Below, in pieces: positions 4,429-18,968 of a stretch of 51,076 nucleotides of DNA. How positions within the stretch are numbered: position 1 is the stretch's first letter; each line of letters starts with the position of its first letter. The DNA comes from Candidatus Sysuiplasma acidicola (GTDB lineage: Archaea; Thermoplasmatota; Thermoplasmata; Sysuiplasmatales; Sysuiplasmataceae), in the NCBI GenBank assembly GCA_019721035.1, contig JAHEAA010000010.1, positions 21,667 through 72,742 on the forward strand, read 5' to 3'. Below the pieces are notes generated by a model. That model had not been told where the DNA came from, did no database searches, and saw only the letters and a list, made by a program, of their open reading frames with translations. The translations under genes were made by a program, and so were the position numbers.

Positions 4429-6525
4429 CTATAACAGTTCCATTTCCCTTTCCAGTATGGCTATTTCCTGTTTTCCAAGTGTGTCCTTTCCGACTGAAAC
4501 AATCAGAAGAGAATTGCGCTCCGACATTTCATCCAGCATTCTCCTAAGCAGCCTCACAGTTCCCTCAAAATTGGTATTGCTTATGACATACTGCAGATCG
4601 TCTATGTTCACAACGACCCTTCCCCCGCCCCTGCAGTTATTGTCGATAAAGCCCTTTATTTCATATTCAATCTTTTCCAGCGAAGGTTCAAGCGTCGCCT
4701 CCTTCTCGCTGATCCTGTCGGTAAGCCAGATAACCCTTGCCTTCTCGAGTCCGGGATACTTGCCGCGCAGCCTTGAAGGATTGACACGCGTTATGTCCAG
4801 CGCAGCCCACTTTTCGGCGATCTTTTCCTGGAGCAGGAGGTGGCACAAGTCCGGCCTGTCTTCCTCTATGAGATAACCGTGACCGGGTTTCAGCTCGAAG
4901 CGCTGTTCGCCCTCCTTTTTCTGTTCCTGTCCTGTACCGCGGAGCATACGCTTCACCATATCGACAGTGGGCTGCAGCTTCATTAGTGCGCTGTAAGCGA
5001 CGACCCTGTTCAGAGCACCGGTGAGCTCCCTCACATTATCTTCGAATGTTTCCGCAATGAAGCGCACTACATCCCGCGGTATGACATAATTCTCTTCCCT
5101 GATTTTCATATCCAGTATCTTTACCCGTGTCTCGAGATCCGGCGGCCTGATATCAACCATCAATCCCGATTCCAGTCTTGTCGATATCTGGCTGTCAAGA
5201 CTTCCGATTTCCTTCGGCGTCCTGTCTCCAGCGCAGACCACACGCATGTTCTTCTTCAGCATTGCATTGATAATGCTGAAGAACTCCTCCTGTGCGTCAT
5301 CCTTGCCGGAAAGGAACTGAGCATCGTCAAACAGCAATAAGTCCAGACCCCTGAACCTGCGCAGCAGTGCCTCCCTCCTGCCGGCCGTCGATGATTCATG
5401 CACTTCCTCGCAGAACCGCTCTGCGCCGACGTACATAACTCTGGCTTCCGGCCGCTGGGAAATGAACATGTTGCCTATCGCATTGAGTAAATGAGTCTTG
5501 CCGAAACCCGCAGGGGCAAAAATGTACAGAGGATTGTAGTTGTCGTCACGCTGCTCTGATATTGACACTGATGCCGCATACGAAAATTTGTTGCCCGGAC
5601 CAACAACGTAGTTGCTGAAAAGCATTGACGGATTCAATCCAATTGATCTGACATCGGGTCCCGTCAAAGTGTGTCCGCAGGCGTCGCATGTCCGGCCTGT
5701 CATCTTTGAGCCGCAGTCAGGGCACGGCATTTCCTGGCCCTTCTGCCATCCGAATATCAGACCATAAACTTCGTCATAATCGCTTACCGACTGACCTGCA
5801 TGCTGTTTTGCATCGTTCTGATTACCGCCTCTGGCTCGTTCCTTCTGCTGTGTCCTGCTGCTGAACTGCGGCTCCATGCTTTCCGGTGCTTCGGGCTTTT
5901 CGCCATCGGCATCACTCACATGTTCCGGTGCGCGGGTACCGGAAAACTCGGGGGCGATAACAGAAGTCTCGATGACGGAATCGTGCTCCGCGGCGTCGGT
6001 GACTTTCATCGCAGCGTCTTCACTTCCCGCTTGTCCGACAGCGCTGCCATCGTCAGCTGAATCCTTCAGCTCTTCCTTCACGGCATTACTGCTGTCCTTC
6101 ACGGATGCTGTACCGGGCGCAGGAACTTGTGCTGCCCTGACCTTCTTGAACTTCCTGGATGATGTCTGATTCATTTCTGTTCCTTCAACTCCACCTGCTG
6201 CAGAATCTTTTGGTGATATGCGATATACCCTCAACCTGCTCTTTGGGTCAAGCGCTTCGTGCCAGACTTTTTTCAGCGCATCTCTGCCCTGTTTCGAATC
6301 GAGCGTGCCGTCCGGACCTGAAACTTTGAAGAGCGCTTCGACAATAGCTCCAGATTTATAGGAAATGTAACCATGCACCTTTTCCGCGCCCGCGGATCTC
6401 TCAAGTATGACTACCGCGGACGACTTGCCGTCCTTGATCTCCTTCGATAGCTTTTTCATTGTGTCGGCACCACCCTGAATCGTCATAATGGCGCTGTGTC
6501 TGGCACGGTCGCTGTCTGATTGCAT
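4429..6525 (-). CDS. DnaA-like AAA+ ATPase fused to zinc ribbon and DUF835
   Basis: A 698-residue multidomain protein. Residues 25-100 form a small alpha/beta domain (HGYISYKSGAIVEALFKV) resembling DUF4388-like modules; 110-260 is low-complexity and probably disordered; 268-283 is a CxxC/CxxC zinc ribbon. Then comes a DnaA-type AAA+ core: NPSMLFSNYVVGPGNKF, Walker A GFGKTH (340-345), Walker B LLLFDDAQFL with Asp400/Asp401, arginine finger in ISTRLESGL (Arg450) and sensor 2 VRELTGALNRVVAYS. The DnaA DNA-binding domain IV is absent; residues 549-690 are instead DUF835 (IWLTDRI, VVNIDDLQYVISNTNFEG). ATP-dependent assembly is likely, replication initiation is not shown. An ATG at 6567 is possible, but a TATA box at 6552-6561 makes the ATG at 6525 the better start. 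It converges on tRNA-Asn. Confidence 0.85.
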   Translation of the reverse strand: MQSDSDRARHSAIMTIQGGADTMKKLSKEIKDGKSSAVVILERSAGAEKVHGYISYKSGAIVEALFKVSGPDGTLDSKQGRDALKKVWHEALDPKSRLRVYRISPKDSAAGGVEGTEMNQTSSRKFKKVRAAQVPAPGTASVKDSSNAVKEELKDSADDGSAVGQAGSEDAAMKVTDAAEHDSVIETSVIAPEFSGTRAPEHVSDADGEKPEAPESMEPQFSSRTQQKERARGGNQNDAKQHAGQSVSDYDEVYGLIFGWQKGQEMPCPDCGSKMTGRTCDACGHTLTGPDVRSIGLNPSMLFSNYVVGPGNKFSYAASVSISEQRDDNYNPLYIFAPAGFGKTHLLNAIGNMFISQRPEARVMYVGAERFCEEVHESSTAGRREALLRRFRGLDLLLFDDAQFLSGKDDAQEEFFSIINAMLKKNMRVVCAGDRTPKEIGSLDSQISTRLESGLMVDIRPPDLETRVKILDMKIREENYVIPRDVVRFIAETFEDNVRELTGALNRVVAYSALMKLQPTVDMVKRMLRGTGQEQKKEGEQRFELKPGHGYLIEEDRPDLCHLLLQEKIAEKWAALDITRVNPSRLRGKYPGLEKARVIWLTDRISEKEATLEPSLEKIEYEIKGFIDNNCRGGGRVVVNIDDLQYVISNTNFEGTVRLLRRMLDEMSERNSLLIVSVGKDTLGKQEIAILEREMELL

Positions 6526-6551
6526 CAATGCTCGAAATCTCATTCTGCCAA

Positions 6552-6561
6552 CTATTAAAAG
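6552..6561 (-). promoter_or_regulatory. TATA-like box of the DnaA-like gene
   Basis: CTTTTAATAG on the minus strand, centred about 6556. Transcription would start about 26 nt on, near 6530, only 5 nt before the ATG at 6525, the nearly leaderless layout common in Thermoplasmata. Confidence 0.5.
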
Positions 6562-6591
6562 TTTCATTCATTTGATTTTGAATGCTGATAA

Positions 6592-12982: not shown

Positions 12983-15060
<2,078 letters not shown>

Positions 15061-15070
15061 GGTGTCCTGA

Positions 15071-17722
15071 ATGGCCGAAGAAGGCGAAGCACGGGAACCC
15101 GCCGTACAGCAGATCATCAGCCGCCCCATCGAAATAGAAATGCGCAAGTCGTACATCGACTACGCAATGAGCGTAATCGTCGGACGTGCGCTGCCCGACG
15201 TGCGCGACGGCCTGAAACCTGTTCACAGAAAAATACTCTTTGGAATGAGCGAGCTGGGAGCGTCTGCAGGCAGGGGACACAAGAAGAGCGCCAGGATTGT
15301 AGGAGAGGTTCTCGGTAAATACCATCCGCACGGCGATATAGCGATTTACGATGCTCTTGTCAGAATGGCGCAGGATTTCTCGATGCGCTATCCGCTCATC
15401 GACGGGCAGGGAAATTTCGGCAGCATCGACGGCGATGCGGCTGCCGCCATGAGATACACTGAATGCCGCCTTTCCAGGATTTCCGAAGAGATACTGCAGG
15501 ATCTGGACAGGGAAACGGTAAGAATGGTGGATAATTTCGATGCCACACTCAAGGAGCCGGAAGTGCTGCCGTCGAAATTCCCGAATCTCATTGTGAACGG
15601 GACAAGCGGCATTGCGGTGGGCATGGCTACCAACATGCCACCTCACAATCTGAGGGAAGTTGTCGACGGTATGAACTTTCTGATAGACAATCCTGATGCA
15701 GATCTTTCTCAGCTGATGAATTTCATCAAGGGTCCGGATTTCCCGACCGGCGGCATTGTCTACGGACTGCGCGGCATTGTGGAAGCCTACACCGGCGGAA
15801 GAGGAAGAATAACGGTAAGGGCGAAAACCACAACAGAAGAGGAAAACGGAAGAAAGAGGATCATAGTTGATGAGATACCTTACCAGGTCAACAAGAGCGC
15901 CATGCTCGAGGACATTGCCAGGCTCGTCAAGGAAAAAAAGATCGACGGTATAAGTGATCTGCGGGACGAGTCGGACAGAAGCGGCATGAGGATTGTCATA
16001 GAACTCAAGAGGGATGCGCTGGAGGAAGTGGTGCTCAACCAGCTCTTCAAGCACAGCCAGATGGAAGTTACCTTCGGCATCATCAACATAGCGCTGGTGA
16101 ACAACGAGCCCAAAGTACTTTCGCTGAAGGAACTGATGCGGAATTTCATCGACTTCCGCAGGGAAATGGTAAGGAAGAGGACAGAGTTTGAGCTGAAACA
16201 GGCAACGGCCAGGATGCACATTGTCGAAGGACTCATGGTGGCAATCGACAACATCGATCGCATGATTGAGCTCATACGCTCTTCACCGTCCGCCGAAGAG
16301 GCGAGACAGAAACTCATGTCGGTGGATGACTGGAGCATCGCGACTGCAACTGTTTCACCGCCTGACGGCAAGGGCGCTTTCCACCTGTCCGAAGAGCAGG
16401 CAAAAGCCATACTGGACATGAGGCTCCAGAAGCTGACCGGACTCGAAATGGACGGCGTGAGGACAGAGCACGGAGAGCTGACGTTGCGCATAGCAGACTA
16501 CACTAGGACATTGAGCGACGAAAGCAAAATACTGTCAATAATAAAATCCGAACTCAGCGAAATAAGGGAGAAGTACGGCGATGACCGCAAGACCGAGATA
16601 AATTCGGAGGGGCTGGAGATGACCATCGAAGACCTCATACCGGATGAGGAGGTCATCGTGACTGTAACGAGCAGGGGGTATGTCAAGCGCATGCCTCTTG
16701 CAACATACGAGATACAGCACAGGGGAGGCAAAGGGCTCACCGGAGTGGAAACGCACGAGGAAGATTACGTGGTGGACATGTTTGTTGCATCCACGCACAA
16801 TTACATCCTGTTCATCACAAACAGGGGAAGGGCGTACTGGCTGAAAACATATCTCATACCTACCGGTTCCAGACACAGCCCTGGCAGGCCAATTGTGAAT
16901 CTCCTTCCGAAACTGGAGGATGGGGAGAAAGTAATAGACAACATACCGCTCAAGTCCTTCGATGAAGGGCACTACCTGCTTTTCGCCACCAGGAAAGGCA
17001 GAGTGAAGAAGACATCCGTCATGGCTTACTCGCACGTACGGTCCCTGGGCATTATCGCAATCGGACTGGATGAAGGGGACGAGGTAATAGACACGGTGCT
17101 CACTGACGGCATGCAGGATGTGCTTCTCGCTACCAGGAACGGCTATGTGATAAGGTTCAGCGAGGGATATGTGCGCCCCATGGGGAGGCAGGCCGGAGGC
17201 GTCAGGGGAATAAGACTGAGGTACGGGGACGAAGTTGTGAGCATGGAATGCTCATTCAGCGAGGGGAATTTGCTCCTCACAGTCACCGAAAACGGTTTCG
17301 GCAAGCCGTCATGGGTAGGCGAATACAGGAAAACACGGCGCGGAGGAAAGGGCGTCATAACAATACAGACGACGGAGAGAAACGGCAAAGTCGTGGCCGT
17401 CAGCGCTTTCAGCCCCGGAGACGAAGTACTGCTGACATCTCAGACAGGCATGGTGATAAGGATACCGATTGACGACATAAGAGTCATGGGCCGAAACACT
17501 CAAGGTGTCAGAATCATGCGTCTGGAGCAGCAGGATCGTGTGACGGCAATGATTCGACTCGTCGGTTCCGAGGAGGAAGAGCGGCTGGTCCAGGAGGGCG
17601 AGGAGGAGATGAAGAGACTCGCGTCTAAAACAGAGCCCGCCGGTGAAGAGACGCTGCAGGATAAAAGGGTGAGCGACAACAAGCTGATAGAGCCGAAGGA
17701 AGGGGAAGACGAGGAAGAGTGA
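15071..17722 (+). CDS. gyrA: DNA gyrase subunit A
   Basis: An 883-residue GyrA. The breakage-reunion domain carries the catalytic Tyr129 in [12 protein letters not shown] and the gate region [20 protein letters not shown]. The C-terminal half is the six-bladed beta-pinwheel that wraps DNA; its GyrA-box is IQHRGGKG (canonical QRRGGKG), with further blades RRGGKGVIT and RNTQGVRI. The last 60 residues are highly acidic (ending GEDEEE), a tail that in bacterial GyrA can modulate wrapping. The start ATG at 15071 has GAGGTG 6 bases upstream as ribosome site. It forms an operon with gyrB and is followed by about 530 bases without an intact gene. Confidence 0.96.
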
Positions 17723-18254: not shown

Positions 18255-18968
18255 GTGTGCCGATTGCTAAGAAACACATTGTCGGGACTGGAAAAGATAT
18301 TCAGAAATGATGTTGATGCGCCGAAAGTGGTGCTCGTCATAGGCCCGCCCGGGTCCATGAAGACATCGTTCTGTTTTTCAGTCATGTCCAGGCATCTGGC
18401 GGATTCCGGCGAGATAGGCATGTATCTCACGCTGGAGGAGACGTCGGAGAGTCACGGCAAGAACATGAAGAGCCTGGGCATCGACACAGACAGGAATCTC
18501 GTCATTTCCGACTTCACTGACATAAGGGAGCTGGAAATGGTCGGGGAAGATGCATCGACTGATTATATAGCACTCATCGAACGGCTGGTAAGGAATTTCA
18601 AGCAGAAACACGGAAAGGCATTCACGATGCTCACCATAGATTCGCTCGGTGCGCTTTACTCGCTCATGGATGACAGCGTCTCGCTCAGGAAGAGCATGTA
18701 TCATTTCTTCAAGAACATGAGGGAGATGGGACTCTTCACAATGCTCATCATGGAAGGAAGCATATCGGACGGGAAATTTTATGCTGGCACTGAAGCATTC
18801 CTGAGCGACGGCGTCATTTATCTGGGCATGGACAACAACAGAGGGAAGATCACCAGATTCGTGCAGATAGGAAAGATGCGCGCGTGCGACCACAGCATGG
18901 AGAGGCATGCGCTCGAAGTCGGCCGCGGCGGACTGCAGATCCTCGGCCCGATGCTCGGCAACATGTGA
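18255..18968 (+). CDS. KaiC/RecA-superfamily ATPase, single domain
   Basis: A 237-residue RecA-fold ATPase of the archaeal KaiC/GvpD-like signal group. Walker A is GPPGSMKTSF (30-39), with Met instead of Gly before the Lys. The catalytic glutamates are in YLTLEETSE (Glu61, Glu62), and Walker B is FTMLTIDSLG with Asp129. The rest (KFYAGTEAFLSDGVIYLGM, then ITRFVQIGKMRACDHSMERH) is the usual end of these proteins. Such proteins hydrolyse ATP and often control transcription, motility or signalling, but the function of this one is unknown. It stands 249 bases before a coiled-coil/zinc-ribbon gene on the same strand. The GTG at 18255 fits the TATA box; a TTG at 18267 is an alternative. Confidence 0.82.
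   Translation: MCRLLRNTLSGLEKIFRNDVDAPKVVLVIGPPGSMKTSFCFSVMSRHLADSGEIGMYLTLEETSESHGKNMKSLGIDTDRNLVISDFTDIRELEMVGEDASTDYIALIERLVRNFKQKHGKAFTMLTIDSLGALYSLMDDSVSLRKSMYHFFKNMREMGLFTMLIMEGSISDGKFYAGTEAFLSDGVIYLGMDNNRGKITRFVQIGKMRACDHSMERHALEVGRGGLQILGPMLGNM

Follow-up and report, generated by a model that had tools for sequence, protein, structure and literature searches.

DnaA is regarded as the bacterial initiator of replication and Orc1/Cdc6 as the archaeal one. Archaeal AAA+ proteins that have been called DnaA-like include viral ones, namely arCOG07960 of SSV and the primase-AAA-zinc-finger proteins of arCOG07809 (PMC4158269). DUF835 (Pfam PF05763) is known from archaeal response regulators, together with receiver and PAS domains, and has been described as an inactivated KaiC domain (PMC5847659). 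The protein considered here joins a DnaA-type core to DUF835 and is encoded in a Ca. Sysuiplasma-like Thermoplasmata genome, within a stretch of 51,076 nucleotides that we call the window. In the open-licence literature, we found no paper that connects DnaA either with DUF835 or with PF00308 proteins of archaea. The gene and its parts are as follows; the plus strand over the same positions contains 20 in-frame stops.

4429-6567, minus strand: DnaA-DUF835 gene, whole; 712 amino acids, comprising N-domain, linker, zinc ribbon, DnaA AAA+ core and DUF835
6217-6486, minus strand: N-terminal domain, residues 28-117; weak likeness to DUF2226/DUF4388; specific to the family and present once in most genomes searched
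5782-6204, minus strand: linker, residues 122-262; disordered in the window protein, coiled-coil-like repeats in many relatives
5677-5724, minus strand: zinc-ribbon-like Cys 282, 285, 294 and 297; two CxxC knuckles in 26 of 43 relatives
4933-5643, minus strand: DnaA domain III AAA+ core, residues 309-545, with the initiator-specific helices at 382-395 and 398-406
5494-5517, minus strand: Walker A, APAGFGKT, residues 351-358 (alignment with E. coli DnaA)
5323-5340, minus strand: Walker B, LLLFDD, residues 410-415 (alignment with E. coli DnaA)
5176-5178, minus strand: arginine finger R464, equivalent to E. coli DnaA R285
5029-5031, minus strand: sensor-2 arginine R513, equivalent to E. coli DnaA R334
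4432-4905, minus strand: DUF835, residues 555-712; Pfam match at 576-709

A DnaA domain III outside DnaA

A preliminary description of this protein had proposed a DnaA-type AAA+ core, with its named motifs, in an archaeon, and this is borne out: residues 309-545 make up a true DnaA domain III, derived from DnaA. Pfam Bac_DnaA (PF00308) matches residues 311-472 over the full model (E 7e-49), the PDB sequences that match best are DnaA proteins, that of B. subtilis first, with those of T. maritima and A. aeolicus, and the modelled core fits domain III of B. subtilis DnaA (8bv3) with a TM score of 0.94 at 43% identity. In the alignment with E. coli DnaA, the named motifs fall on K178 (Walker A), D235/D236 (Walker B), R285 (arginine finger) and R334 (sensor 2), and across 43 cores the Walker A Lys and the Walker B Asp are kept in all, the arginine finger in 38 and the sensor-2 Arg in 40. 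Membership of Hda, DnaC or IstB is ruled out by the scores (94.9 bits with the NCBIfam Hda model against a cut-off of 194.8, and less than 35 bits with the DnaC-type models) and by the full set of initiator-specific (ISM) helices, and the models of the DnaC/DnaI/IstB helicase-loader or transposase-helper clade were not the best-scoring ones. A placement of the core outside DnaA, Hda and DnaC, which would have overturned the original proposal, did not occur; it falls together with DnaA.

The window protein has a DnaA domain III yet does not qualify as a DnaA initiator: the tests for domain IV, for domain I and for the equivalog score all came out negative. The Pfam scan of the protein gave no DnaA_N match for domain I, and the NCBIfam DnaA model scores 284.2 bits, under its equivalog cut-off of 343.9. 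Domain IV (PF08299) was found in none of the 42 genomes searched, the window protein included, with all 10 bacterial controls positive, so that the predicted absence of this domain holds and no true domain IV lies at the C-terminus. The E. coli ssDNA-binding positions V211 and R245 are His and Asp in the window protein and are not kept in the family, R245 varying in bacteria as well.

In place of domain IV stands DUF835, as had been suggested (residues 576-709, E 7e-19, 68 bits against a 33-bit cut-off), and PF05763 is matched by 41 of 43 relatives. The reading of this domain as an inactivated KaiC comes from the literature (PMC5847659): comparison with KaiC in the PDB gave weak matches alone (E 0.2-0.3), and profile comparison of DUF835 with the neighbouring KaiC-type protein described below recovered no homology. 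A zinc ribbon before the core is confirmed by its four cysteines. The supposed long acidic linker is indeed a linker and is predicted to be disordered, and its acidity is mild, with 24 D/E against 16 K/R in 141 residues. The preliminary description was incomplete in that it overlooked the N-terminal domain, the wider family and the neighbourhood of KaiC-type, zinc-ribbon and gyrase genes. Residues 28-117 form a small folded alpha/beta domain that recurs in nearly all relatives, usually once per genome. Its likeness to known families is weak: with a permissive cut-off (E up to 5), 14 of 41 members match DUF2226 (best E 2.8e-5) and 5 of 41 match DUF4388 (best E 4.8e-4), and a fold search of the PDB gave no match below E 0.001.

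The AlphaFold model has pLDDT mostly above 90 over N-domain, core and DUF835, and its pTM of 0.45 leaves the arrangement of these domains unfixed. Against a 79%-identical relative, dN/dS for the window gene is about 0.08, with dS near saturation, and by this sequence comparison the gene appears to be under purifying selection. This value, together with the recurrence of the same domain order across the phylum, argues that the architecture is not a product of chance.

Spread and descent of the family

A strong Bac_DnaA match is present in 108 of 300 genomes of the class and in 27 of 243 genomes of a sample of the phylum, nearly all of the genomes compared being metagenome assemblies. None of the archaeal control genomes has a match at the same limit; other archaeal phyla were covered by these few controls and by a contig profile scan with DUF835. 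Relatives that have a name carry the label Thermoplasmata, Thermoplasmatota, Methanomassiliicoccales or simply Euryarchaeota, and the nearest is from Ca. Sysuiplasma superficiale. The bin of that species holds two copies (L073 and L075), 99% and 58% identical to the window protein, and is possibly mixed (6% contamination).

The commonest order in the class is N-domain, linker, DnaA core and DUF835. Among 80 named loci, 60 have N-domain, core and DUF835, eight have no detected N-domain (some of the contigs being short) and 12 are without the core. In other classes, L164-L166 keep the N-domain/core/DUF835 order, L153 and L157 have an N-domain, many helical repeats, the core and zinc ribbons (L156 is cut at its N-terminus), and L159-L163 have a coiled coil before the core. 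Several of these proteins are unusual in their own right. L153, L156, L157, L167 and L168 are 1200-1400 amino acids long, with many repeats of about 80 residues (W..GY.V..LE... D...) before the core and zinc ribbons behind it; in L158 (6353-7954), which is apparently membrane-anchored, the core is preceded by a membrane helix and a signal-peptide/fibronectin-like part; and L170, L171 and L172, from another part of the phylum, are very divergent DnaA-core proteins of 621-856 amino acids without N-domain or DUF835.

In an outgroup-rooted tree of the core, the root was spoiled by the long branches of Hda, DnaC and IstB, and for this reason these were left out of a second tree. There, the Thermoplasmata cores form one group (91/85) apart from bacterial DnaA, and the other Thermoplasmatota cores fall between this group and the bacteria, whose unity as one clade is not rejected (p-AU 0.48). 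This tree contains 12 bacterial or bacteria-like rows from few phyla, which limits what can be inferred about a donor.

It is worth considering whether such a gene could be a bacterial contaminant, a viral DnaA or a decaying relic, given that the genome, probably assembled from a metagenome, is a 35-contig draft and that phage-borne DnaA genes exist. The presence of the family in 108 genomes of the class, amid archaeal neighbours and together with Orc1/Cdc6, its grouping apart from bacterial and most viral DnaA, and the selection acting on the gene make the chance of this practically negligible. No bacterial or viral sequence was found to be nearer to the window protein than the archaeal family members are. 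A viral origin was likewise rejected: the core-bearing relatives on viral contigs fall with bacterial DnaA, and in most of them the core is followed by about 105 residues, the length of domain IV.

Gene neighbourhood and loss of the core

Three further genes of the window bear on the role of the protein.

13132-15060, plus strand: gyrB, divergent from the DnaA-DUF835 gene
15071-17722, plus strand: gyrA, after gyrB
18255-18968, plus strand: KaiC-type ATPase (PF06745, 115 bits against a 26.6 cut-off), with intact P-loop and EE motif

In the KaiC-type ATPase, the P-loop (G29-T36) and E60-E61 are invariant in seven orthologues. Its gene is present in 69 of 72 carriers of the DnaA-DUF835 core versus 8 of 87 non-carriers, a co-occurrence that partly tracks phylogeny, so that the Fisher value overstates independence. 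Five of these eight non-carriers have a core-less orthologue (G021 being matched to L143 by contig), and the remaining three genomes are incomplete. In 36 genomes of 13 families, some with gyrase elsewhere, the KaiC-type gene lies within 15 kb of the DnaA-DUF835 gene. In addition, the gene for a zinc-ribbon/helical protein lies convergently beside the DnaA-DUF835 gene in 11 of 20 long loci; this protein has a strong match in most carriers, and in the window's genome it is on another contig. These associations are pertinent to the idea that the protein is a STAND-like one-component signalling ATPase, in which the N-domain would sense a ligand, the AAA+ core would switch, and DUF835 would address histidine kinases or response regulators, not the KaiC neighbour. 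The known occurrence of DUF835 in archaeal response regulators (PMC5847659) and the many other DUF835 proteins in these genomes are in keeping with it. Co-occurrence and linkage with one particular KaiC-type gene and one zinc-ribbon gene are specific and speak against it, and we consider it rather unlikely.

The window's DnaA-DUF835 gene lies 6.6 kb from gyrB-gyrA (13132-17722), with the KaiC-type gene following. Across the family, linkage to gyrB, in every case divergent, extends to 24 genomes from 8 families. Archaeal gyrase is thought to stem from one bacterial transfer, in a paper that does not mention DnaA (PMC9348778), and these two facts make it attractive to suppose that DnaA core and gyrase were transferred together from bacteria. 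We reject this supposition: the lineages with the linkage are confined to one region of the DUF835 tree and other families have gyrB unlinked, so that the linkage looks secondary. Apart from this, several Methanomassiliicoccales gyrase ORFs, at 819-1369 amino acids, are far above normal length (L065 gyrA/gyrB; L062 gyrB; L224 and L227 gyrA), and the L065 gyrA sequence has an intein-like insert. A defence system was also considered and set aside, PADLOC having given weak AAA matches alone.

Orc1/Cdc6 is present in all 37 genomes tested, and in seven (G022, G032, G062, G069, G195, G199 and G225) an orc1/cdc6 gene and the DnaA-DUF835 gene are about 41-48 kb apart, hinting that the locus is near an origin. 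The protein might accordingly be imagined as a replication-control factor, its core opening or holding DNA or modulating Orc1/Cdc6 at the origin, as Hda or DnaA does in bacteria. The complete ISM helices, the gyrase linkage in one clade and the orc1/cdc6 distance, seen where both genes are close on one contig, speak for such a role. Speaking against it are the missing domain IV, the His and Asp at the ssDNA-binding positions, the constant presence of Orc1/Cdc6, and the retention of the rest of the locus in lineages that have lost the core; the orc1 distance, moreover, may be plain synteny near an origin. Replication control is therefore unlikely in our judgement, and so is origin initiation by the protein itself.

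The lineages without the core are the most informative. Methanomassiliicoccaceae, a family with cultured members, has an orthologue of 340-395 amino acids that consists of N-domain and DUF835 alone, DnaA core and zinc ribbon being gone; this was read in five genomes and covers most of the 12 named core-less loci. Flanked by thiC and the zinc-ribbon gene, the orthologue's gene lies next to gyrBA and, on contigs that extend far enough, the KaiC-type gene, and these genomes have no Bac_DnaA match elsewhere at the limit used. In the DUF835 tree, 13 core-less proteins form one clade nested within core-bearing relatives, and L143, which keeps its zinc ribbon, marks a second, separate loss. The DnaA core has thus been lost at least twice from an otherwise conserved protein, although its loss in one lineage could also mean that its function was abandoned there.

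Since the core-less orthologues keep N-domain and DUF835, these two ends are the conserved working parts and the core is losable; and since these same-locus orthologues also keep their neighbours, the ATPase is best seen as an accessory part. That it is exactly the DnaA core that was lost makes it probable that the protein is not a replication initiator, and reuse for something other than origin recognition, as first proposed, is supported as probable. Of the two examples offered at that time, a regulator fits the dispensable core better, and a loading factor is not borne out. A helicase or polymerase loader of the DnaC/DnaI kind might be read from a DnaC-like PHROG match (E 4e-13) and the weak scores of the DnaC-type models; the DnaA scores are far better and one lineage does without the core and yet replicates, and we regard a loader as very improbable.

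A possible role, and comparison with known systems

The reading we prefer, tentatively and at a little short of an even chance, is that of a regulatory assembly protein of the Thermoplasmatota, in which the bacterial-type DnaA AAA+ core is an ATP-dependent oligomerisation switch and DUF835 a docking end. ATP binding would stack the cores head to tail, as in DnaA; the stacked cores may then gather the N-domains and DUF835 ends into an array, and the docking partner of DUF835 might be the KaiC-type ATPase encoded nearby or the zinc-ribbon protein. The output would be regulation of a chromosome-related process, not origin recognition, as the gyrase linkage in one clade may suggest. One can imagine going further, with a captured bacterial DnaA motor, a KaiC-type ATPase and an inactivated KaiC domain together forming a switch that senses energy and acts on chromosome topology or gene expression. 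We think this decidedly unlikely; if true, it would be a hybrid DnaA-KaiC system beside bacterially derived gyrase genes, and we know of no counterpart.

With a real core, no DNA-box domain, a defined neighbourhood and natural core deletions, the family is a clean case in which to ask about the work of a DnaA ATPase released from origin binding, and about the way in which a replication motor turns into a regulatory part. The core-less Methanomassiliicoccaceae orthologues are a ready comparison for the role of the core.

It is informative to set the protein beside the systems that it most resembles. With bacterial DnaA domain III (PF00308; B. subtilis 8bv3/8btg, T. maritima 2z4r, A. aeolicus 2hcb) it shares the whole AAA+ core with lid, the initiator-specific helices, Walker A and B, the arginine finger and sensor 2. 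Unlike bacterial DnaA, it has no domain IV and no domain I match, carries DUF835 behind the core and another domain at its N-terminus, and does not keep the ssDNA-binding residues, and its host has Orc1/Cdc6. Hda is similar in being a DnaA-derived AAA+ protein without domain IV, but in E. coli Hda the ISM is shortened and the alignment places an Arg at the position of the Walker A Lys. SSV arCOG07960 and arCOG07809 are set apart by their description as virus-associated, whereas the DnaA-DUF835 family is chromosomal and occupies a conserved locus. Finally, the DUF835 proteins of archaeal signalling (PMC5847659) have the same C-terminal domain as the window protein, but none is described there with a DnaA core.
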